From contig NZ_CP012646.1 in assembly GCF_001281025.1 (NCBI RefSeq), forward strand, positions 1,579,001-1,643,000: DNA of 64,000 nt, read 5' to 3'. The notes under the pieces are model-generated. The model was not told the DNA's origin. It saw only the letters and a list, made by a program, of their open reading frames with translations, and ran no database searches. This DNA is from Streptococcus mitis (GTDB lineage Bacteria > Bacillota > Bacilli > Lactobacillales > Streptococcaceae). Shown one piece after another: positions 278-11,319 of the stretch. Each line of letters begins with the position of its first letter. The stretch's first letter is position 1. The position numbers and the translations under genes were made by a program.

Positions 278-607
278 TTAGAGGTCCCCCTTCAAAAATC
301 CTTCCAAATCACGTTCATGTTGGTACTTAATGGCTGCAGTTTTGTCTTTCTCAAAGATAGTCTTGATAAGGTCAATATCATTAATAGCTGCGATAGCAAC
401 TGTATAGTGAATGATATCAGCCAGTTCTTTTGCTAGTTCCTCGTTCGAATCTTGAACTCCCTCTTTTCGACCAGAGCGCCCATTCAAAACTTCAGCTACT
501 TCTCCGACTTCCTCCACTAACTTCATAAAGAGACCTTCCTCAGTCCGAGACTGCTGGTAATGTTCCAGTAGGTAGTCTTGTAATTGTCTAAACGTTAAAT
601 CCTTCAT
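278..607 (-). CDS. MazG-like nucleotide pyrophosphohydrolase
   Basis: A 109-residue all-alpha NTP-PPase-fold protein of the MazG/RS21-C6 type, which hydrolyses (d)NTPs to monophosphate and pyrophosphate. The metal-binding acidic pattern is visible: EEVGE at residues 32-36 and E61xxD64 in a second helix. A longer frame begins ten codons upstream, but AAGGAG sits six bases before the ATG at 607, so I use that start. It lies 44 bases after khpA and is probably the last gene of the rpsP-khpA transcript. The substrate cannot be told from sequence; house-cleaning of non-canonical nucleotides is the usual role. Confidence 0.8.
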   Translation of the reverse strand: MKDLTFRQLQDYLLEHYQQSRTEEGLFMKLVEEVGEVAEVLNGRSGRKEGVQDSNEELAKELADIIHYTVAIAAINDIDLIKTIFEKDKTAAIKYQHERDLEGFLKGDL

Positions 608-651
608 ATCCTGCTCCTTGCAAAAAAAGCGAGACATTCGTCCCGCCCTTC

Positions 652-891
652 TTATTTTTCGTCAATAACGATTCTTACTTTTTTGTCTTCAGTTGGGACA
701 GAGTAGACAATCGTTCTTATCGCAGAAATAGTGCGACCCTTACGACCGATTACACGACCCACATCGCTTTGATCAAGATCCAAATGATATTCCAAAAACT
801 CTGGTGTATCTTCAATCTTGATAGTTAAGGCATCTGGTTGTGAAATCAAGGGTTTCACAATCGCAATAATGAGATTTTCAATCGTATCCAT
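652..891 (-). CDS. khpA: KH-domain RNA-binding protein KhpA
   Basis: A 79-residue single KH domain with the RNA-contacting GxxG loop GRKG at about residues 49-52, followed by the helix TISAIRTIV. In streptococci KhpA binds RNA together with KhpB (EloR) and affects cell elongation and division. The start is 19 bases after rpsP, the usual partner in Gram-positive bacteria, and the two are surely co-transcribed. Length is normal for the family. Confidence 0.95.
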
Positions 892-910
892 CTGTCAACC
901 TACTTTAAAC

Positions 911-1183
911 TTATTTTGAGAATTTAGAATCGTGGAATTTCTTCAATACACCTTCTTTTGAAAGGATGTTGCGAACTGTATTTGAAGGTTGAGCTCCATC
1001 AGCCAACCATGCAAGAACGCGGTCTTCTTTCAAAGTTACTTGGTTTTCAGCAACAAGTGGGTTGTAAGTTCCAACTGTTTCGATGAAACGTCCGTCACGT
1101 GGTGAACGTGAATCTGCTACGTTGATACGGTAGAAAGGTTTTTTCTTAGAACCCATACGAGTCAAACGGATTTTAACTGCCAT
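911..1183 (-). CDS. rpsP: 30S ribosomal protein S16
   Basis: A 90-residue S16 with the family start [20 protein letters not shown] and a normal length. It is an assembly protein of the small ribosomal subunit. It is first gene of the rpsP-khpA(-mazG-like) transcript and is preceded by a strong promoter. In related genomes rimM and trmD are often nearby; they are not in this window. Confidence 0.98.
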
Positions 1184-1247
1184 TTTTAAAGTCTCTTTTC
1201 TTATTTTTTATTTCGGTGAAATAGCTGAGCTATTTAGCACATGTTCT

Positions 1248-1275
1248 ATTATAGCAGATTTCTGGCAGGTGTCAA
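1248..1275 (-). promoter_or_regulatory. rpsP promoter (extended -10)
   Basis: On the minus strand a perfect TTGACA (1270-1275) is followed after 16 bases by TATAAT (1248-1253), with TGC directly before the -10. The position, about 65 bases upstream of rpsP, fits a strong ribosomal-protein promoter. Confidence 0.9.
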
Positions 1276-1359
1276 GAAAAAAACTTGACAGACTATAAAA
1301 TTTTTACACCATTTATAAATTGGTTAGACTAATAAAGATAAATTAGAAAGAGAAACTTT

Positions 1360-1559
1360 ATGAATACTACAATAGAGAACATTTACAAAGACCATCAAGT
1401 CAAAACCTTTATCTCTCCTGAACGTGATGTGGATGCTTGGCTCCTAAATCCCAAGCCCGTTCCTAAACGAAATATGGTACTACTTAAAGACAATCTCCTG
1501 GCAGGAGATATCATTCTACTATGGAGAATCCACTTTGGAACTTTTACCACCGAAACATG
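1360..1559 (+). pseudogene. 5' part of a split SAP-domain gene
   Basis: The frame encodes 66 residues beginning MNTTIENIYKDHQVKTFISP and then meets TGA at 1558-1560. The rest of the gene is found 5.1 kb away, from 6698. Joining base 1559 to base 6698 turns the TGA into TGG and continues without a frame change into FPKYFEYTYDIDAPKHLK. This shows that the stop was created by an insertion. The ribosome binding site (AAGAG) is weak. The function of the intact protein is not known to me; the distal half carries a SAP-like helix pair. The fragment alone is unlikely to be functional. Confidence 0.8.
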
Positions 1560-1767
1560 ATTTTAAAAATTTCCATTCGAATATGATTCAAAATTCTCTT
1601 AAAATCAACGTTTTCTCGTTTTTTTAGAAAACAAATTTTCATCTAATTTGAATAACTTTCAATTAAATGGTGTGAATTTCACCCTAAAAACACACGAATT
1701 GAGCTAAATTTTACTAAAAAGTTCATACAATTATATATTCATGAAATTGCGACATATTCATCATTTA

Positions 1768-2670
1768 TCAATCCCCAATAAATAAGTTTTCCCACTGAGT
1801 GATAGATGCTGGTAGGATCAACTTATACTTCTCATAGAAATCTAACAAATCGTTGTCCCCTATCCTAACTACATTTTCAATCTTATCTAAATTTATCACT
1901 CTCGGAGCATATAAATATACTATATAGCCTTCATCTAAGTATTGTTTAAATTCTAAGGCGTCAAGTTCCTTTGCTTTCTTTCCTTTCACTTGAACTACTG
2001 CTTTTCTCGGGTTATCAATTTCTCTTGAAATCATTTCACATTCAATTTTTATAGTAGTTGATTTCTTTGCAATTGAATTAGAAAGGACATAGTAGTTTTC
2101 CTTAATTTGAAGATATGAGATGACAAGTTCTTCTAAATCAAATTCAGGTAGATTATCGAGGAGACCTCCACTATAGGTTGTTACCTCAAAATAATTCTTT
2201 TTCGAAAATTTATTAAATATCAATTTTGAATATTCAATTATGCTTTTATCCCGTATCCTCTCAACTGTACCACCAAGAGGTCTATTAAACGATGACTTTA
2301 TCTGTCCAGGGACTTGCATTCCCACGTTAAATGCATCAACTTGGATAACTGATCCAATATCCAAATGAGTATCACAAACTACTTTGGCTTGAGATTTCGC
2401 TTTACATATCCAATAATTTCCACTTAAATCTCGTGTCCAGAATAAATCATCTATCTGAGCATCCTTAAAAACATTTATTGCTGGATTCGCTCTGCCTCTT
2501 TCTTTTTTTATTCGTCCATAGTATTCATTAAAGTCTTCTTCCCGAATATCGCTACTTAAGCGACTCCAACCAAGTGCAAGATACTGTTCAGAATTATTTA
2601 AACAGAAGCCAATTAACTCTTTCCTAATGTTATCGTCTCTTTTTAAATGTATTCTAGTCACATAATCCAT
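1768..2670 (-). CDS. Putative PUA/EVE-like plus PD-(D/E)XK-like nuclease protein
   Basis: A 300-residue protein with no close family known to me. Residues 1-105 resemble the N-terminal PUA/EVE-like domain found on Mrr-type restriction enzymes: an initial RIHLKRDD strand, ALGWSRL, then DDLFWTRDLSGNYWICKA. Residues 165-285 can be read as a PD-(D/E)XK fold: a helix with LEEL near 179-182, an acidic IECE strand, and KAVVQVKGKK near 222-231, where Q-x-K would be the catalytic pair seen in Mrr-like variants. This is inference from pattern, not a proven match. The start is five bases after the preceding gene, and AGAGAGG lies inside that gene's end, so the two are co-translated. It would be the effector of the inserted module. 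Confidence 0.6.
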   Translation of the reverse strand: MDYVTRIHLKRDDNIRKELIGFCLNNSEQYLALGWSRLSSDIREEDFNEYYGRIKKERGRANPAINVFKDAQIDDLFWTRDLSGNYWICKAKSQAKVVCDTHLDIGSVIQVDAFNVGMQVPGQIKSSFNRPLGGTVERIRDKSIIEYSKLIFNKFSKKNYFEVTTYSGGLLDNLPEFDLEELVISYLQIKENYYVLSNSIAKKSTTIKIECEMISREIDNPRKAVVQVKGKKAKELDALEFKQYLDEGYIVYLYAPRVINLDKIENVVRIGDNDLLDFYEKYKLILPASITQWENLFIGD

Positions 2671-2675
2671 TCAAA

Positions 2676-3479
2676 TTAGCCTCTCTTACTTTTTTCTTTC
2701 AAGATTATTTCGACTCCCGCTTGATGTAAAATATCATATCTAACACGACTTACTTCTGATTCATCGATTAAATTAAGAAGATGATCAATTTCTTTTCTTC
2801 CTTCTTCACTTAACTTTGGCTTTATATCAACTAAGTTTTTTTGTAGTCTTAAAAACAATTGAATAGCTACTTCGTAATCTTTTTTCTCTTGTAATTCTTG
2901 CTGCTTGGCTAAAAATTCTTTTTCTTTCTCTTCGTTTTTCTTCCTATTTTGTTCAGCCATTTCACAAAGTATTTCATAATCCACTGTTTGAGTCTCAAAA
3001 TCTTTTTTTACCAACTCCAACATTTGAGGCGTAATACGAATACGATTATAAGCTTCTTTTACTAAGGAAGTGATTTTATCCCAATAAGGTATTTCTGAGT
3101 CTTCTCGGAACATTAATATTTCCCGATCCGTTATCACAATTTTCTTTTCTTCATCAATGAAATAGCCTTTTTCTTTGTAATTATTTAACTCAAAAATATA
3201 CTTCTCTAATCTCCATTGTTTGACAATTTTTTTGGCATTGTCAGATAAATCAGCGTTGACCACATATCCATATAACCAATCAGGAAGATTAATATCACCT
3301 ATAGTCCATCTTTGTTTCTCATCTGAGTATATTTTATTTCTTAATTCTCTGTCGGGAAATTTAACTTTATTAAAAACGTACTTAATAATCTCGTCACCCT
3401 CTTGAATGTATTCGTTCCAATACTTGCTATACTTAGCGTAGGGGCTAAATGGACGAGTTCTATATATAACTCTACTCAT
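2676..3479 (-). CDS. Unknown charged protein with predicted coiled coil
   Basis: A 267-residue protein that I do not recognise. It begins MSRVIYRTRPFSPYAKYSKY, has an aromatic and acidic N-terminal half, and a very charged helical stretch at about residues 165-210, rich in K, E and Q, that looks like a coiled coil. There is no signal peptide and no membrane segment. AAGGAG lies eight bases upstream of its ATG. Its ATG overlaps the stop of the small ORF upstream (ATGA), and the nuclease-like gene follows after five bases. The tight packing suggests it works as a partner or adaptor between the ATPase and the nuclease-like protein. Confidence 0.75.
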   Translation of the reverse strand: MSRVIYRTRPFSPYAKYSKYWNEYIQEGDEIIKYVFNKVKFPDRELRNKIYSDEKQRWTIGDINLPDWLYGYVVNADLSDNAKKIVKQWRLEKYIFELNNYKEKGYFIDEEKKIVITDREILMFREDSEIPYWDKITSLVKEAYNRIRITPQMLELVKKDFETQTVDYEILCEMAEQNRKKNEEKEKEFLAKQQELQEKKDYEVAIQLFLRLQKNLVDIKPKLSEEGRKEIDHLLNLIDESEVSRVRYDILHQAGVEIILKEKSKRG

Positions 3480-3559
3480 TTCATCTTCTCCTTTAGTTGG
3501 TGAAATTCACAGTATTCTTTTATAACAGATAAAACTTTCTCCCAGTCTTTCTCAAACAT
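3476..3559 (-). CDS. Possible 27-residue ORF between regulator and unknown gene
   Basis: The ATG directly abuts the TAG stop of the WYL regulator (TAGATG). The frame runs 27 codons, beginning MFEKDWEKVLSVIKEY, and ends in a TGA that overlaps the next gene's ATG. The exact fit at both ends argues for a translated coupling peptide or a small subunit. The ribosome binding site is weak (GGAAGAA far upstream), so reinitiation would be needed. It may also just be chance. Confidence 0.4.
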   Translation of the reverse strand: MFEKDWEKVLSVIKEYCEFHQLKEKMK

Positions 3560-4513
3560 CTAGTCAATGTAATTTTCTTCCATTTTCTTAATAAGAATCT
3601 TCATGTCATCAATTAACGACTGTGGAGACAATACCCTTAAGGATTCCGCTTGACCCAATAGCCACCTCTTCAGCCCTGGTGTATCCTGACTCACAAATTC
3701 AATAATATTACCATTTGATGTTTTTTCAATAATTTTTGCTGTTGGGAATTGATCAACAACAATTGCTGAATCATTGACAAATAGGACTCTGATCTTTAAC
3801 TCTTTTCCTATGAATGGATCTACACGTTTATTACGAATGTCTCCATCACGAAATTTTCTTCCATATGAGAGAGAAGGTTTTTTCTTTTCTTTAGATTCTA
3901 CCCAACTAAGAATTCTATCTAGTTTCAAGGTCATATAAGAATCAAAAACTAAATTATAAGCTACTATGTAAAAGTAATGAGTATCATAATAAAGCGATAC
4001 CGGGAAAATGGTATGATGCTTTTTAGTATTATAGGGAGATTGATATTCAATATCTAGTAGCAATTCCTTACGAATCATTTCAGACCATTCCCAAACCTTA
4101 TCAATACGATTTTGTGTATCTGACAATGGTGCATAATTTAGCAACTCACTTGCAATAATACTGGAAACTTCATTTTGCTCATCTTTTGAAATAAGTGCTA
4201 ATAAACTATCAAGTAATGACTTGTTTTCTTCCTTATTCAAAGATCGATTTTCTAGTAAAATCTTTGAAATTACAAGAATATCCTTTTTATTAAACAAAGA
4301 TTTTCCTTTTAAGTATCTTGTATGGTGCTTTGCATCATAAGCAAGCTCTGCTGCAACCATTGGTTGTGTATCTAAGAAACCAGACAAGAGAGAAAAATCT
4401 CGTTGTATAGTTTTTTCACTAACACCAAATTCATCAGCAAGCTGAGCCTTAGATAAATGCGCGCCAGACTGTAAGCGTAAAAATATAGTTAATAAGCGTT
4501 CTTGGTCGTTCAT
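3560..4513 (-). CDS. HTH-WYL-WCX transcriptional regulator
   Basis: A 317-residue protein with a DeoR/YafY-like winged helix at about residues 1-55 (LSKAQLADEFGVSEKTIQRD). A WYL domain spans roughly 140-220, including FPVSLYYDTHYFYIVAYN, and a WCX-type C-terminal extension lies at about 235-310. WYL regulators of this build control many phage-defence loci (for example BrxR and CapW) and sense nucleic acid or nucleotide ligands. It has its own promoter about 25 bases upstream, 134 bases after the ATPase gene, and is followed without a gap by the small ORF and the two effector-side genes. I infer that it represses this operon. Confidence 0.85.
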   Translation of the reverse strand: MNDQERLLTIFLRLQSGAHLSKAQLADEFGVSEKTIQRDFSLLSGFLDTQPMVAAELAYDAKHHTRYLKGKSLFNKKDILVISKILLENRSLNKEENKSLLDSLLALISKDEQNEVSSIIASELLNYAPLSDTQNRIDKVWEWSEMIRKELLLDIEYQSPYNTKKHHTIFPVSLYYDTHYFYIVAYNLVFDSYMTLKLDRILSWVESKEKKKPSLSYGRKFRDGDIRNKRVDPFIGKELKIRVLFVNDSAIVVDQFPTAKIIEKTSNGNIIEFVSQDTPGLKRWLLGQAESLRVLSPQSLIDDMKILIKKMEENYID

Positions 4514-4535
4514 ATAATTCTAATCCTTTACTAAT

Positions 4536-4565
4536 ATTATAGCATTCCCAATGGTTCAGATTCAA
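4536..4565 (-). promoter_or_regulatory. Promoter of the WYL regulator operon
   Basis: On the minus strand TTGAAT (4560-4565), an 18-base spacer and TATAAT (4536-4541) with TGC before it form an extended -10 promoter. It lies inside the inserted module, so the regulator and the three ORFs after it can be expressed separately from the ATPase. Confidence 0.75.
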
Positions 4566-4648
4566 TCAATTTCTTAGTTCAAATCTTTTACTGATAGTAC
4601 TCTTTTTCAAGCACCGATTTCTTCTTTTAGAGCCTACTATAGATTTCT

Positions 4649-6514
4649 CTACCTTCCGAATCCTATCAACGATATTGATTTTGAAGATTTTGCTTCAATA
4701 GCTACAATAGCCTTATTGATATCTGTCAATGTAATTTGATTTAAAAAGTTTTCATCTTCTAATTGAATCTTATCACCTTCAACCACGCGTTGTGCTTGAC
4801 AGAAGACAATCTCATCTACTAATTTACGAACGTATCGAGCATTTCCAAAATTGCTACAATTTACAACTTCTGAAAAATGCTGACGTAGTACCATCTTACA
4901 ATCGTCGGTTAATTGATAATGTCTTTTATTTATCATCAATTCTAAAATAGCAATTAGTTGATCAATTGTATAATCGAAAAATTTTATTTCTCTGGAAATT
5001 CTAGAGGATAATCCTGGATTAGTTTCAATGAATTGAGCCATCAATTCTTCATAACCAGCAAAAATAACCAAAACCTCATCCCGACGATTTTCCATTTCCT
5101 GTATAATCGCTGAAATAGCTTCATGTCCGAAATCTCTATCACTACTTGGAATAAGACTATAGGCCTCATCTATAAAGAGTACTCCCCCTCTTGCATCATC
5201 AAAAACTCTTTTTACTTTTGGAGCAGTTTGACCAACATATTCACCAACTAATTCCGTTCTACCTACCTCCACTAACTTATTCTCTTTAATTATCTTATTG
5301 TTGTATAAAATTTCTGAAAAGAGCCTAGCAACTACAGTTTTCCCAGTCCCAGGATTTCCGGAAAAAACAAGATGACGATTTAATACTTCGTTACTAAATC
5401 CATGTGCCTGACGCATTACAGAAACTCGACTATATGCTAACTGCTGCTTTAGGACCATTTTCACTTCTTCTAAACCAATTAATTCACTCAGCTTTTTCTC
5501 CGCATTTTCTTCATCTTCAACTGAAGATTTATTTTGGAGAATGAATCCATCGAGATTTAATTCATTTTTTTCTGAAGGATCATAATTATTTTGCACTGCA
5601 AATTCAATAAGCTCTTGAACAAAAAGGCGAACTTCTTTGGCATCCTTTAGCACGTGATTTTCAGCTACTAATCGTTCAAAATCTTCGTTACTCAAATGAA
5701 CACCTTTTTGATTTAGCATTTGAATACCAATTCCTTTAAGCTCTGATTCATCATACCGGGGGAAATTAATAATTGATACCTTATTAAAAACATCGAGTAA
5801 CTCTTTTCTAATAGCTTCTGCTTCTTGAATGCTTCTAGAAATAATAATATTAAAGGAATTCCCCTTCTTTTGTCGAAAATTATCAAAAATATCTGATTTT
5901 GTTTTTGATCTTGCCGAAAGATAATCAACTAATACAGCGAAATCTTTTTCACTCATTTTAGGAACAAAATAATGATTGCAATTAACAAATATCGCATTCA
6001 TACCAAAGATAGACTCTAGAAACTTGATTGCAAACTTTCTACCCGTTCCTTTCTCACCAGTAAAAATATAAAAATGTTGTTGATTTTCATTATTGCTTAT
6101 TTTTTCTTGGAAGGATATATAATCAATGAATTCTCGAATAGCTCCTTTAAATTCAATTAGGGCAATAATATCATTCAACTCGTCCAACTTTTCTAAATTG
6201 GGTTTTAATTGTTCAGAAAATCTTTCTTTTTCTGCACTAAGTAAGAATTTGACTAAATCTCCTATATCACTTCTGCCAAGTTTCTTGATAAAATCACTTT
6301 CTATTAAAGGCTCTACCTTAGCTAGTAAGAACTCATAATCAAAAAAATCATTTATTTTTTTCATAATTTCTTGGTCATTGTAATTTTCTTGAGAAATAAG
6401 ATAGTATGATTCTCCTTCTTTCAAAAAAATTAAATGATTAGACGTAATAAAATCATTCGTCTGAGTTTTAAAAAAATCATCAGGATTCTTAAATTCAACT
6501 TGATAGTAATTCAT
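4649..6514 (-). CDS. Tandem AAA ATPase, CbbX/SpoVK type, with degenerate first module
   Basis: A 621-residue cytoplasmic protein. Residues 1-130 are an unknown N-terminal region. Residues 145-310 look like an inactive AAA module: a degenerate P-loop GEKGTGRK near 152-159 and no acidic Walker B (NIIISRS instead). Residues 340-600 are a CbbX/CfxQ/SpoVK-type AAA module with Walker A GNPGTGKT near 383-390, Walker B VLFIDEAYSL near 443-452, a sensor region VIFAGYEE, and an arginine pair after NPGLSSRISREI. AGAGGTGAG precedes the ATG. Hexameric remodelling of a partner protein is the family role; the partner here is probably one of the two genes downstream. Confidence 0.8.
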   Translation of the reverse strand: MNYYQVEFKNPDDFFKTQTNDFITSNHLIFLKEGESYYLISQENYNDQEIMKKINDFFDYEFLLAKVEPLIESDFIKKLGRSDIGDLVKFLLSAEKERFSEQLKPNLEKLDELNDIIALIEFKGAIREFIDYISFQEKISNNENQQHFYIFTGEKGTGRKFAIKFLESIFGMNAIFVNCNHYFVPKMSEKDFAVLVDYLSARSKTKSDIFDNFRQKKGNSFNIIISRSIQEAEAIRKELLDVFNKVSIINFPRYDESELKGIGIQMLNQKGVHLSNEDFERLVAENHVLKDAKEVRLFVQELIEFAVQNNYDPSEKNELNLDGFILQNKSSVEDEENAEKKLSELIGLEEVKMVLKQQLAYSRVSVMRQAHGFSNEVLNRHLVFSGNPGTGKTVVARLFSEILYNNKIIKENKLVEVGRTELVGEYVGQTAPKVKRVFDDARGGVLFIDEAYSLIPSSDRDFGHEAISAIIQEMENRRDEVLVIFAGYEELMAQFIETNPGLSSRISREIKFFDYTIDQLIAILELMINKRHYQLTDDCKMVLRQHFSEVVNCSNFGNARYVRKLVDEIVFCQAQRVVEGDKIQLEDENFLNQITLTDINKAIVAIEAKSSKSISLIGFGR

Positions 6515-6697
6515 TCACTCTCACCTCTTTTTATAATAAATTAATTTTACAAAAAAGGATGGACATTTATTGTCTAGTTAATTATTTTTTAAGAAAATAA
6601 AAAAGAACACCCAAAAAAGTAATCTTTTTAAGTATAGTAATTCTTTCGAATTAACGTTTACTAAATTGTGATGCTTTACGAGCTTTCTTAAGATCTG

Positions 6698-7030
6698 GTT
6701 TCCAAAATACTTTGAGTATACTTATGACATTGATGCCCCTAAACATTTAAAAACTCTGGTGGAAAAAGGTTATGCAGTCATTGAAACAGCTTTTGACTCA
6801 CTTGATCATCTCAATGCTACTATGAAAAAGAATATTCTGAAAAGCAAGGGAATTACAGGACTATCTAAGATGAAGGCTGCAGATCTGGAGCAAACCCTTC
6901 ATAACAACTTTTCAGAAGAAGAATTAGCAAGTCACTTTACCGTTCGTGGCTACAAATTAACTCCAAAGGGGAGCAGATACTGGAACAATACAAGGGAATT
7001 ATCAACCGCCATCCAAAGAAGAATCTCTAA
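6698..7030 (+). pseudogene. 3' part of the split SAP-domain gene, with a second lesion
   Basis: This is the distal part of the gene that begins at 1360. It includes FPKYFEYTYDIDAPKHLKTL and a SAP-like stretch with ILKSKGITGLSKMKAADLEQ. At the G-run 6968-6971 one base is missing: restoring it continues the frame as GEQILEQYKGIINRHPKKNL and a TAA at 7028-7030. Without it the frame runs on into the slrA promoter. The gene is therefore broken twice, by the insertion and by a frameshift. A GTG at 6759 could start translation of the remnant, but no good ribosome binding site is seen. Confidence 0.75.
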
Positions 7031-7080
7031 TCAAGTGATTTTTTGGTCGATTTTCTCTAAAACTACCTTGTCACTAATAT

Positions 7081-7109
7081 TTGAAATCCACTTCCTTTTA
7101 GGGTACAAT
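7081..7109 (+). promoter_or_regulatory. slrA promoter
   Basis: TTGAAA (7081-7086), a 17-base spacer and TACAAT (7104-7109) lie about 30 bases before the slrA start, which has GAGAGGA as ribosome binding site. Confidence 0.8.
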
Positions 7110-7138
7110 GGTAGAAATGAATTTTTGAGAGGATCAGA

Positions 7139-7927
7139 ATGAAAAAACTAGCAACCCTTCTTTTACTATCAACTGTAGCCCTAGCTGGATGTAGCAGCAT
7201 CCAACGTAGTTTGCGTGGTGATGACTATGTAGATTCTAGCTTGGCCGCTGAGGAAAGTTCCAAAGCAGCTGCCCAATCTGCCAAGGAGTTAAATGATGCT
7301 TTGACAAACGAAAACGCCAATTTCCCACAACTATCTAAAGAAGTTGCTGAAGACGAGGCTGAAGTCATTCTCCACACAAGTCAAGGAGATATCCGTATCA
7401 AACTCTTCCCTAAACTCGCTCCTCTAGCGGTTGAAAACTTCCTCACTCATGCTAAAGAAGGCTACTATAACGGTATTACCTTCCACCGTGTCATCGATGG
7501 CTTTATGGTCCAAACTGGAGATCCAAAGGGAGACGGTACAGGTGGTCAGTCTATCTGGCATGACAAGGATAAAACTAAAGACAAGGGAACTGGTTTCAAA
7601 AACGAGATTACTCCTTATCTATATAACATCCGTGGTGCTCTTTCTATGGCTAATACTGGTCAACCAAACACCAATGGTAGCCAGTTCTTCATCAACCAAA
7701 ACTCTACAGATACCTCTGCTAAACTCCCTACAAGCAAGTATCCAAAGAAAATCATCGAAGCCTATAAAGAAGGGGGAAACCCTAGTCTAGATGGCAAACA
7801 CCCAGTCTTTGGTCAAGTGATTGACGGTATGGATGTTGTAGATAAGATTGCCAAAGCAGAAAAAGATGAAAAAGACAAGCCAACTACTGCTATCACAATC
7901 GACAGCATCGAAGTGGTAAAAGACTAA
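7139..7927 (+). CDS. slrA: Cyclophilin-type peptidyl-prolyl isomerase lipoprotein SlrA
   Basis: A 262-residue lipoprotein. The signal peptide [18 protein letters not shown] ends in the lipobox LAGC with the acylated cysteine at 18. A short Ala/Glu-rich linker follows, and then a cyclophilin domain from about residue 75, with [28 protein letters not shown] and GSQFFIN. It catalyses cis-trans isomerisation of prolyl bonds in proteins at the outer face of the membrane. In pneumococcus SlrA contributes to colonisation. It stands alone, with its own promoter and a terminator hairpin shared with the convergent ABC-F gene. Confidence 0.95.
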
Positions 7928-7933
7928 GATTTT

Positions 7934-8038
7934 ATACTCAATGAAAATCAAAGAGCAAACTAGGAAACTAGCCGCAGGCTGTACTTGAGTACGGCAAGGC
8001 GACGTTGACGCGGTTTGAATTTGATTTTCGAAGAGTAT
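7934..8038. repeat. BOX element (A and C modules, no B)
   Basis: A 105-bp repeat bounded by ATACTC and GAGTAT. It contains the boxA core CGGCAAGGCGACGTTGACG and the boxC-like AAATCAAAGAGCAAACTAGG, in minus orientation relative to copies at 9667, 25495 and 28842. BOX elements are scattered non-coding repeats of the mitis group that fold into a hairpin. Confidence 0.9.
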
Positions 8039-8055
8039 TAAATCTTAAAAACCAA

Positions 8056-8092
8056 AAAATACAGTATCCACATTCGGTACTGTATTTCTTTT
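8056..8092. terminator. Bidirectional terminator between slrA and the ABC-F gene
   Basis: AATACAGTA (8058-8066) pairs with TACTGTATT (8078-8086), with an A-run on the left and TCTTTT on the right. It therefore works for both convergent genes. Confidence 0.8.
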
Positions 8093-8102
8093 ACTCTCAT
8101 TC

Positions 8103-9644
8103 TTAAGTTAAATTATTAAAATCCCATATTTGGTCCATCCAGCCTTCATAGAAGTCTGGTTCGTGACAGACCATAAGAATAGATCCCTTGTATTCTTTGA
8201 GAGCACGTTTGAGTTCATCCTTGGCATCCACATCCAAATGGTTGGTCGGCTCGTCCAGCACTAAAACGTTGTTTTCACGATTCATCAAGAGACAGAAACG
8301 AACCTTGGCTTGTTCCCCACCTGACAAAACCTGAATTTGGCTTTCAATATGCTTGGTTGTCAAACCACAACGGGCAAGGGCTGCACGGACTTCTGCTTGA
8401 TTAAGGGCAGGAAAGGCATTCCAGACAGCTTCAAGAGGTGTTTGACGATTGCCTCCTTCTACTTCCTGTTCAAAGTAGCCAAGTTCTAGGTAGTCTCCAC
8501 GTTCAACCTCTCCAGCGATTGGTGGAATAATGCCCAAGAGGGACTTCAAGAGAGTTGTTTTCCCGATACCATTTGCCCCGATAATAGCAACCTTTTGATT
8601 ACGTTCAAAGGTAAGATTTAAAGGCTTGGTCAGAGGACGATCATAACCAATTTGCAAATCCTTGGCTTGGAAAATAAAACGCCCTGGTGTACGAGCTGGT
8701 TTGAAATCAAAGGATGGCTTTGGTTTCTCACTTTGCAGTTCGATAATATCCATCTTATCCAATTTCTTCTGACGGGACATGGCCATGTTTCGTGTTGCAA
8801 CACGCGCTTTGTTTCGGGCAACAAAGTCCTTAAGGTCCGCAATTTCTTTCTGCTGACGTTCGTAGGCTGCCTCTAGCTGAGATTTCTTCATAGCATAGAC
8901 TTCTTGGAACTGGTAGTAGTCACCAGAGTAACGCGTCAGCTGTTGATTTTCCACATGATAGACGATATTGATAACATCGTTCAAGAATGGAATATCGTGT
9001 GAAATAAGGACAAAGGCATTCTCATAGTTTTGGAGATAGCGCTTGAGCCAGTCAATATGCTCAGCATCCAAGTAGTTGGTTGGCTCGTCCAAAAGCAAGA
9101 TATCGGGCTTTTCAAGGAGGAGTTTTGCCAAAAGCACCTTGGTTCTTTGCCCACCTGACAAAGAAGTTACATCTGTATCCATGCCAAAGTCCATGACACC
9201 AAGGGCACGCGCTACTTCGTCAATCTTAGCATCCAAGGTATAGAAATCACGACTCTCTAAACGATCTTGCAGTTCGCCAACTTCTTCCATGAGAGCATCA
9301 ACATCCGCACCGTCTTCAGCCATTTCCATATAAAGGTCATTGATACGAGCTTCAGCTTTAAACAGCTCATCAAAAGCCGTACGGAGAACATCACGCACCG
9401 ACTGGCCTTCAGCAAGGACAGAGTGTTGATCCAAGTAACCCGCAGTCACATATTTGGACCACTCAACCTTTCCTTCATCTGGCAGCATTTTACCAGTCAC
9501 AATGCTCATAAAGGTTGATTTTCCTTCACCATTGGCACCGACCAGACCGATATGTTCTCCCTTAAGGAGGCGGAAGGACACATCTTCAAAAATTGCACGG
9601 TCACCAAAACCATGACTCAGATTTTTAACTTCTAAAATACTCAT
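8103..9644 (-). CDS. ABC-F family ATPase (YbiT/YkpA-like)
   Basis: A 513-residue soluble protein with two ABC domains and no membrane segments. Walker A motifs are GANGEGKST (about 37-45) and GANGIGKTT; signatures are LSGGQ and LSGGEQ; Walker B motifs are LLLDEPTNYLD and VLVLDEPTNHLD. The linker between domains has the charged helices typical of ABC-F proteins, which act on the ribosome. Both catalytic Glu are present. The subfamily looks like YbiT/YkpA rather than an antibiotic-resistance ABC-F, but this needs a tree. It is flanked by BOX elements on both sides. Confidence 0.9.
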   Translation of the reverse strand: MSILEVKNLSHGFGDRAIFEDVSFRLLKGEHIGLVGANGEGKSTFMSIVTGKMLPDEGKVEWSKYVTAGYLDQHSVLAEGQSVRDVLRTAFDELFKAEARINDLYMEMAEDGADVDALMEEVGELQDRLESRDFYTLDAKIDEVARALGVMDFGMDTDVTSLSGGQRTKVLLAKLLLEKPDILLLDEPTNYLDAEHIDWLKRYLQNYENAFVLISHDIPFLNDVINIVYHVENQQLTRYSGDYYQFQEVYAMKKSQLEAAYERQQKEIADLKDFVARNKARVATRNMAMSRQKKLDKMDIIELQSEKPKPSFDFKPARTPGRFIFQAKDLQIGYDRPLTKPLNLTFERNQKVAIIGANGIGKTTLLKSLLGIIPPIAGEVERGDYLELGYFEQEVEGGNRQTPLEAVWNAFPALNQAEVRAALARCGLTTKHIESQIQVLSGGEQAKVRFCLLMNRENNVLVLDEPTNHLDVDAKDELKRALKEYKGSILMVCHEPDFYEGWMDQIWDFNNLT

Positions 9645-9666
9645 TTTAATTCCTTATCTTGTTTTT

Positions 9667-9771
9667 ATACTCTTCGAAAATCAAATTCAAACCACGTCAG
9701 CTTCACCTTGCCGTACTCAAGTACAGCCTGCGGCTAGCTTCCTAGTTTGCTCTTTGATTTTCATTTAGTAT
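9667..9771. repeat. BOX element overlapping the end of the VanZ-like gene
   Basis: A 105-bp copy starting ATACTCTTCGAAAATC and ending TTTCATTTAGTAT, with a boxA part (CCACGTCAGCTTCACCTTGC) and a boxC part (AGCTTCCTAGTTTGCTC). It is nearly the reverse complement of the copy at 7934, so the ABC-F gene sits between an inverted pair of BOX elements. Confidence 0.9.
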
Positions 9772-10234
9772 TATGTAATCGGTTATAGAGGAGCCAAGCC
9801 AGATAGCCACCCAAGGTATTGGTCCACAAATCATCAATCTCAAAGACTCGATTAAAATCAAAGAAAAAGTCCAAGACCAACTGCGTACACTCGATTCCAA
9901 GACTCACTAGAAAACTGAAAAGAAGGACCTTTTTTGTTTTCCGCAAGTTTGGAAGGAGATAAAGGAGTTGGAAAATCAGAGGAAAAAGTAAGAAGACATT
10001 GAGGATATTTTGTAGAAAAATCCAATATAATTGTCCAATGTCACTCACTTCACCTAGTTTCCAGAGAGAATTGAAAGGAGTCAAAAGAAAAACCAGGCGT
10101 CCAAGATGCTGAATACCTGGAGTTTCCACTCCCACGGGAGATTGTTCTTGAGGAGTAAAGCAAAAATAGACGATACAAATGCTATAGAAAATGACTCCCC
10201 AGACCAAAACATGATTATAACTCTTCTTCATCAT
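9761..10234 (-). CDS. VanZ-like membrane protein
   Basis: A 157-residue protein with about four to five membrane segments and the VanZ-family pattern: the NVFLLFPLIFQLLYLLP region, SLGIECTQL and a final DDLWTNTLGGYLAWLLYN. VanZ-type proteins are linked to glycopeptide and lipoglycopeptide tolerance, but the biochemical role is unclear. Its ATG overlaps the TAA of rlmN (TAATG), so it is translationally coupled. The last codons and the stop fall inside the outer 11 bases of a BOX element, which may have replaced the original C-terminus. Confidence 0.8.
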   Translation of the reverse strand: MMKKSYNHVLVWGVIFYSICIVYFCFTPQEQSPVGVETPGIQHLGRLVFLLTPFNSLWKLGEVSDIGQLYWIFLQNILNVFLLFPLIFQLLYLLPNLRKTKKVLLFSFLVSLGIECTQLVLDFFFDFNRVFEIDDLWTNTLGGYLAWLLYNRLHNTK

Positions 10235-11319
10235 TAAGGATTGACTGCTGCGACTGCTTTCTGGCGGTCACGTTTCATTGTGTTAGAGCGCAATTGTCCA
10301 CAAGCTGCATCAATATCTGTACCATGCTCTTGACGAACAACACAGTTGACCCCTTTTTTCTTAAGCGTATCATAGAAGGCCAGGACGCGCTCTTTAGGAC
10401 TACGGCTATATTGGTCATGCTCACTAACTGGGTTATAAGGAATCAAGTTGACATAAGACAATTTCTTGATGTTCTTGAGCAATTCAGCCAATTCTAAGGC
10501 TTGTTCTACACCGTCATTTACTTCATTGAGCATGATATACTCAAAGGTTACACGACGATTGGTTGTTTCGATATAGTACTCAATAGCAGCAAAGAGTTTT
10601 TCAATCGGAAAGGCACGGTTAATCTTCATGATGCTTGAACGCAACTCATTGTTAGGTGCGTGAAGGGAAACGGCAAGATTGACCTGAACTCCTTCATTAG
10701 CAAAATCACGAATTTTATGGGCCAAACCTGAGGTTGAAACCGTAATGTGACGAGCACCGATAGCCATTCCCTTGTCATCATTGATGGTACGGACGAAATT
10801 CAAGACATTGTTGTAGTTATCAAAGGGCTCACCGATACCCATGACAACGATATGGCTGACGCGTTCGTCCTGACCACGCTCATCAAAGTATTTCTGAACC
10901 AGCATGATTTGTGCTACGATTTCACCGTTATTGAGGTCACGTTGTTTCTTAATCAAACCAGAAGCACAGAAGGTACAACCGATATTACAGCCGACCTGAG
11001 TGGTCACACAGACTGACAAACCATAGTGTTGACGCATGAGTACTGTCTCAATCAACATACCATCAGGCAATTCAAAAAGATATTTAACGGTACCATCAGC
11101 AGACTCTTGAACGATACGCTGTTTCAAGGGATTGACCACAAATTGGTCATTGAGCTTAGCAATCAAATCCTTGGAAAGGTTGGTCATCTCTTCAAATGAC
11201 TGGACACGTTTACGATATAGCCATTCCCAAATTTGGTCTGCACGGAATTTCTTTTCTCCCTGCTCCAAAACCCATTCCTGCATGGTTTGACGTGTTAAAC
11301 TATAAATTGACGGTTTCAT
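10234..11319 (-). CDS. rlmN: 23S rRNA/tRNA adenine-C2 methyltransferase RlmN
   Basis: A 361-residue radical-SAM enzyme that methylates C2 of A2503 in 23S rRNA and A37 in some tRNAs. The CxxxCxxC cluster motif is in [12 protein letters not shown]. The conserved second catalytic cysteine is in AACGQLR near the C-terminus, and [13 protein letters not shown] is the GEP region. Length and motifs are normal. It lies 20 bases after yutD and overlaps the VanZ-like gene by one base, so the three form an operon. Confidence 0.97.

Follow-up and report, generated by a model that had tools for sequence, protein, structure and literature searches.

A four-gene island of Streptococcus mitis that pairs a tandem AAA ATPase and a WYL regulator with a predicted modification-dependent nuclease

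The island and its four proteins

An island of four genes lies at 1768–6514 of the window, the 64,000-nucleotide stretch of Streptococcus mitis contig NZ_CP012646.1 (positions 1,579,001–1,643,000) that was analysed here. It encodes, in this order, a tandem AAA ATPase, a WYL regulator, a 267-residue protein (C267) and a predicted nuclease (S02). Each gene is a complete open reading frame with an ATG start and a stop codon. The intergenic gaps are 135, 80 and 5 bp. The initial annotation described genes that overlap or nearly touch; the last two genes nearly touch, and no genes overlap. The features of the region, with loci in other genomes denoted by L numbers, are as follows.

1768–2670, minus strand: 300-residue PDC-S02 protein (S02), a predicted PUA/EVE/YTH-like reader (residues 1–162) and PD-(D/E)XK nuclease (residues 168–293), from PADLOC, AlphaFold2 and the PDB
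2676–3479, minus strand: 267-residue C267 protein with an N-terminal β-sheet, a long helix and a C-terminal helical part, from the predicted structure
3560–4513, minus strand: 317-residue HTH-WYL-WCX transcription regulator, from Pfam
4649–6514, minus strand: 621-residue tandem AAA ATPase with a degenerate AAA domain (residues about 110–303) and an intact CbbX/SpoVK-type AAA domain (residues about 339–600), from Pfam, NCBIfam and alignments
6560–6576, unstranded: predicted WYL operator, inverted repeat TGGAC-N7-GTCTA, from a pattern search
1574–6694, unstranded: island missing in a close relative, limits approximate, from alignment with L176
1565–1732, unstranded: left end, the second half of an approximately 270-bp dispersed repeat; this half aligns to L042 1279–1446, directly after the first half
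6598–6700, unstranded: right end, first half of the same repeat, which aligns to L042 1174–1276

S02 matches the PADLOC profile PDC-S02 with an E-value of 2.4e-50 (169.8 bits; residues 3–296 against profile positions 2–293 of 299). Its AlphaFold2 model, with a predicted local distance difference test score (pLDDT) of 89, contains a PUA/EVE/YTH-type reader fused to a PD-(D/E)XK nuclease, which agrees with the PUA plus PD-(D/E)XK protein of the initial annotation. The nuclease motif is composed of E180, E210 and Q227-V-K229, as judged from conservation across 26 sequences. The best solved structure matches for the nuclease domain are the modification-dependent enzymes MspJI and AspBHI, and the reader aligns with EVE, YTH and McrB N-domains in the PDB. 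The model combines two type IV-like features, a PUA-superfamily reader domain and a nuclease domain with conserved catalytic residues, and none of the four island proteins matches a methyltransferase family at any curated cut-off. In its predicted structure, S02 resembles a modification-dependent (type IV-like) restriction enzyme. Phage records contain no S02 match at E ≤ 1e-5, and a single-protein query of viral contigs did not confirm a close S02 relative.

The ATPase passes the Pfam cut-offs for AAA (residues 383–511, 71.4 bits) and AAA_lid_6 (residues 537–599, 45 bits), and its C-terminal AAA domain gives the best structural alignments with CbbX and EccA. Across 12 aligned proteins, this domain retains a GxxGTGKT Walker A motif, a FIDEA Walker B motif, an NPGLxSR segment and a YVG/YIG motif; the two Walker motifs and Y426-V427-G428, which occupies the pore-loop position, are invariant or at least 90% conserved. 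In the first AAA domain, GxxGxG is retained in the same alignment, while [RK]K replaces the expected Lys-Ser/Thr and D197-Y198 replaces Asp-Glu (Asp-Thr in one row). The N-terminal copy matches the C-terminal AAA domain in hhalign with a probability of 96% (E = 3.8e-9, 183 columns). The degenerate first-domain motifs, together with this match to the intact domain, support the dead/active AAA tandem that was initially annotated. By analogy with AAA+ proteins in general, the YVG motif may be a substrate-threading pore loop, which suggests protein threading rather than DNA translocation. The ATPase stays below the NCBIfam equivalog cut-offs for SpoVK (277.1 versus 422.95 bits), CbbX (257.4 versus 459.25 bits), EccA (208.3 versus 466.65 bits) and IetA (IteA_antiphage; 30.8 versus 510 bits). 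Eleven phage records match it at E ≤ 1e-20, all confined to residues 334–612, and residues 1–334 have no tblastn match in plasmids. Apparent relatives of the N-terminus, with matches of 36–44 residues, are found in 33 genomes of the ATPase survey. The single case opened, L187, is an isolated piece of an ATPase gene of this type and was set aside: its 520 bp (2250–2769) match the L044 ATPase gene at its operator and 5´ end with 93% identity, and genes of the mef(A) and msr types lie downstream.

The WYL regulator proposed in the initial annotation is borne out by HTH_11, WYL and WCX, each of which lies above its Pfam gathering score. C267 matches no Pfam or NCBIfam family at a curated cut-off. 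Its model (pLDDT 87.2, predicted template modelling score 0.58), which was built from seven sequences, has no PDB match at E ≤ 0.001.

The GC content is 0.318–0.325 in the blocks covering 2001–6000, compared with 0.35–0.47 in the remaining blocks. In the close relative L176 (genome G001), window positions 1373–1573 and 6695–9000 align to the adjoining stretches 8240–8439 and 8421–10725 with nothing in between, so that an island of about 5.1 kb is missing there. L177 is also without the island, and window positions 293–1306 and 7079–7932 align about 31 bp apart. Given the same-strand reading frames, the low GC content and the absence from a close relative, the four-gene island of the initial annotation is real. 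It is flanked by what we take from sequence to be a ribosomal-protein S16 gene (911–1183) and a peptidyl-prolyl isomerase gene (7139–7927). Horizontal acquisition best explains the island, and its DNA has no megablast match in plasmids. The dispersed repeat at its ends is whole elsewhere, for example at L042 1174–1446, whereas its halves are swapped in the window, with the second half, the genes and the first half in this order. Recombination of the island through one copy of the repeat, or its circularisation with such a copy, could have produced this arrangement.

Recurrence of the ATPase–WYL core and exchange of its effectors

The genus survey comprised 147 Streptococcus genomes, including that of the window. 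S02 is found in 11 of them, and the ATPase is matched in 58, of which 13 are covered from the N-terminus through the AAA domain. At all 13 loci with a full-length ATPase, a WYL gene lies in the same gene row, adjoining the ATPase gene or one small gene apart. At one of these loci (L049/L188), an insertion splits the ATPase. The effectors at the 13 loci are S02 in six cases (with C267 or a homologue in four) and a GmrSD-domain pair in seven, which was assigned by Pfam for two of the seven pairs and by similarity for the others. The full four-gene set recurs in the same order in L041, L042 and L115, and also in L144 with a broken WYL gene, which supports the co-occurrence implied by the initial annotation. 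On the evidence of these sequences, the ATPase and WYL genes form a stable core.

Beyond the genus, the full-length ATPase was detected at E ≤ 1e-60 in four of 246 genomes of the order, all Streptococcus. C267 matches occur in seven of the 147 Streptococcus genomes and in four of 299 genomes of the class, again all within Streptococcus. Distant C267 homologues (28–30% identity) lie beside S02 in Streptococcus suis L150 and L151, and a genome from another genus (L139) has a C267 relative close to a CbbX-type gene. In L193, a 113-residue frame (6732–7073) weakly resembles part of C267 (blastp E 0.001–0.009) and is located after an operator repeat and before a GmrSD pair. The PDC-S02 profile has matches in 14 of 348 genomes of the phylum, seven of them N-terminal only. 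At four loci, the match to the S02 reader region falls within or ahead of an McrB-type AAA_5 protein whose gene neighbours McrC. The N-terminal-only matches at L112, L113 and L134, three of the seven, were discarded; they lie in short frames, whose proteins have no Pfam family at the cut-off.

A scan of species genomes yielded 33 S02 loci. Eight carry the ATPase, WYL and S02, all in Streptococcus: L143, L144 (broken WYL), L145, L146, L150, L151, L153 and L159; several of these eight records also appear in the other surveys. Four further Streptococcus loci have no ATPase in the flank (L147, L148, L149 and L171, the last broken); L148 contains a 102-residue AAA fragment at its far edge. The other 21 loci are from outside Streptococcus, and none of them has a full-length ATPase in the flank; in one, L169, another CbbX-type gene lies 5 kb away. 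Four of the 21, the Clostridia-type loci L154, L164, L168 and L169, have an FtsH-like AAA-M41 gene near S02. WYL matches are found in six of the 21, directly beside S02 in L154 and L169. These Clostridia-type AAA-M41, WYL and S02 neighbourhoods parallel the streptococcal set of AAA, WYL and S02. S02 is also present on five Streptococcus salivarius plasmids, and the two plasmid neighbourhoods read contain no ATPase, WYL or C267 match.

The effectors are exchanged between closely related ATPase–WYL cores, as judged from sequence comparison. S02 with C267 or its homologue is carried by L151 (S. suis YS161), L150 (S. suis YS56) and L045, while L046 and L047, whose ATPases are more than 90% identical to those of the former three, carry the GmrSD pair. 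Between L151 and L046, the DNA is 96.1% identical along 4762 bp that begin ahead of the ATPase and run past the WYL stop; unrelated effectors follow, and then the alignment resumes downstream. Still present in L151 are 357 bp of the second GmrSD gene, along with a 359-bp copy of the 5´ region of the ATPase gene. The ATPases of L151 and L046, which have different effectors, are 95.6% identical, compared with 92.6% for L151 and L150, which have the same effector. A tree of 16 ATPases, which carries a long-branch warning for L048, requires three effector changes (three to four in bootstrap trees), at least two of which are forced by the starred branches. Because near-identical cores hold different effectors, and the identities and tree agree, the effectors move between closely related cores.

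WYL relatives at E ≤ 1e-40 occupy 33 loci in 32 of the 147 Streptococcus genomes, namely the 13 ATPase loci and 20 others. Thirteen of the 20 have a GmrSD pair (about 2 kb away on the opposite strand in L193), two have a ClpB-like AAA protein with a 176–179-residue protein and a UvrD-type protein, and five are truncated or unclear. S02 or GmrSD is present at 26 of the 33 loci. All 17 loci examined have the inverted repeat RGAC-N7-GTCY 46–53 bp ahead of the ATPase start, and a second copy lies 7–26 bp past the WYL stop in nine of 15 loci, the window type being without it. The loose pattern occurs twice in the 64 kb, against 2.7 expected from simple shuffles. Since the pattern is this rare and the interval so narrow, the uniform placement is improbable by chance, although the loci are related. 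The inverted repeat is probably the WYL operator. Ahead of several ATPase genes, the repeat is followed by a T-run, as in a terminator; the second copies have no T-run, so the terminator was rejected in favour of the operator.

Further genes accompany the WYL regulator in related loci. In L195–L203, which presumably adjoin polC, the repeat precedes the small gene ahead of WYL in nine of nine loci. Small genes near WYL match Bac_DnaA above the cut-off in L195, L203 and L189, and that of L196 is 0.1 bit below it. DnaA-like or DnaB-like small genes (L045 8811–9374 and equivalents, L044 11024–13414, L189 6853–9241) recur beside WYL and replace or accompany the long ATPase, as does a 187-residue protein without a family. 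Adjoining the island in L041 (11658–16349) and L042 (10504–15636) are a HAD-type gene and a UvrD-PD-(D/E)XK-type gene, the latter split in L041; on their far side lies another copy of the operator repeat. The L042 UvrD-PD-(D/E)XK-type protein is 77% identical to one in L205, a WYL and ClpB-like locus. A single WYL protein may control several defence modules. A similar frame of 39–41 codons lies between WYL and either type of effector in L046 (5315–5434, minus strand), L050 (11668–11790, plus strand) and L151 (4708–4833, plus strand), and by eye also in the DNA of L045, L047 and L051; in the window type, the gap has no room for it.

Proposed function and alternative explanations

We consider it fairly probable that the island is a horizontally acquired, WYL-controlled and ATPase-assisted locus for modification-dependent (type IV-like) restriction, and we infer a role in defence. 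The WYL protein would bind the inverted repeat and alter transcription on sensing nucleic acids or nucleotides that signal infection. The S02 reader would capture a modified base of incoming DNA in an aromatic pocket formed by W35, W78 and perhaps W87, and the nuclease domain would cut the modified invading DNA; fold and conservation point to both steps. The ATPase would remodel or license the nuclease complex, perhaps through C267 as an adaptor, as association and exchange suggest. Because the same core also sits with GmrSD pairs, the ATPase and WYL protein may form a general chassis that assists and controls interchangeable type IV nucleases. We propose only tentatively that this streptococcal chassis, comprising a CbbX-type unfoldase-like ATPase, WYL and a shared operator, swaps unrelated modification-dependent nucleases by recombination and that its motor threads protein and not DNA.

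Several observations weigh against the favoured explanation. The strongest is that S02 so often occurs without the ATPase, with a frame of at least 299 residues in 18 of the 21 non-Streptococcus loci. Since apparently intact S02 is found without the ATPase in Clostridia, Veillonella, Streptococcus and plasmids, it may not depend on the ATPase. WYL and GmrSD loci without the long ATPase exist as well. Operator specificity is weakened by the strict repeat pattern, which occurs at five places in the genome compared with ten for a reversed control. The solitary copies would be expected if S02 were a self-sufficient type IV restriction enzyme and the ATPase and WYL protein a separate regulatory or housekeeping unit merely sharing an operator-tagged neighbourhood. 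We regard this explanation as rather unlikely, and against it each of the 13 full-length ATPase genes from the genus survey is accompanied by WYL and by either S02 or GmrSD. Within that survey, S02 is intact in six of six loci with the ATPase and in one of five without it (Fisher P = 0.015), a contrast that also speaks against self-sufficiency but should not be pressed because the species-genome scan added two intact solitary Streptococcus copies, L147 and L148.

Decayed S02 where the ATPase is absent (L053, L054, L056 and L057) is what the loss of a restrained toxin could leave. Together with the tight operon and its regulator, it would suit an abortive-infection or toxin–antitoxin-like module, in which S02 is a self-toxic nuclease restrained by the ATPase, C267 or WYL until infection. 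However, a reader-type domain would be superfluous for a general suicide nuclease, and the many genomes with apparently intact S02 and no ATPase argue in the same direction; we judge such a module improbable. The initial annotation left the choice between restriction and abortive infection. The former is supported by the resemblance of S02 to modification-dependent enzymes and because the same ATPase–WYL core elsewhere carries GmrSD-domain proteins, while nothing found points specifically to the latter. A role in host DNA metabolism or uptake control rather than immunity, such as limiting certain DNA during competence, seems very improbable. Many streptococci are naturally competent, all eight loci of the species-genome scan with ATPase, WYL and S02 are streptococcal, and related loci repeatedly contain DnaA- and DnaB-like genes; nevertheless, the patchy presence at an empty site, the low GC content and the exchange with GmrSD-domain proteins suit defence better.

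If the island is an ATPase-assisted restriction locus, streptococcal restriction of modified phage DNA would combine a constant motor-and-regulator core with interchangeable nucleases, and the AAA protein linked to type IV nucleases would be of a protein-remodelling type rather than a DNA motor like McrB. PDC-S02 would gain a structure-based mechanism and a testable operator. Genome pairs with the same core and different effectors offer natural experiments on the role of the ATPase.

Comparison with known systems

The closest solved fold for the S02 C-terminal domain is that of MspJI and AspBHI, and the conserved Q-x-K motif of S02 is also found in MspJI. The reader of MspJI and AspBHI is an SRA-like domain, whereas that of S02 aligns with EVE, YTH and McrB N-domains instead. 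VcaM4I is an EVE-HNH endonuclease and thus differs from S02 in its nuclease, which is HNH rather than PD-(D/E)XK. Like the island, McrBC pairs an AAA motor with a PD-(D/E)XK nuclease; the window ATPase, however, has a CbbX-type lid (AAA_lid_6). McrB-type AAA_5 narrowly misses its cut-off in the window ATPase (21.9 versus 22) and covers only the P-loop part (positions 1–74 of 139), and neither McrC (PF10117) nor another McrBC family is matched by Pfam in the four island proteins. The C-terminal domain of the ATPase is like those of CbbX, SpoVK and EccA, from which the protein differs in its preceding degenerate AAA domain and its restriction-like context. Pairs with domains of the GmrSD/BrxU/SspE family replace S02 behind the same ATPase–WYL core in sister loci, and Pfam detects neither GmrSD_N nor GmrSD_C in the island proteins of the window.

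In domains and neighbourhood, the WYL protein is similar to BrxR-type regulators, in which an HTH-WYL regulator likewise adjoins restriction genes. According to the part of the source that was available, type IV enzymes account for 37 of 210 BrxR-associated defence systems, and six BrxR homologues were found in 607 Firmicutes genomes (PMC9122601). The initial annotation regarded the system as a candidate undescribed one, which holds within the literature covered for the combination of genes but not fully for the 300-residue protein, since the latter matches the PADLOC candidate PDC-S02 nearly end to end and often occurs without the other three. The name PDC-S02 occurs in four papers. In the accessible part of one of them, PMC11719660, PDC-S02 appears solely as a predicted candidate; here it lies within an ATPase–WYL–C267 operon. 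The ATPase–WYL–PDC-S02 set, the exchange of effectors on one core and the shared operator are unreported in the titles and abstract openings covered, a range outside which most subscription papers and bioRxiv fall. The parts are of known kinds: a modification-dependent nuclease listed as a candidate, a WYL regulator as reported with type IV enzymes, and a CbbX-type ATPase.

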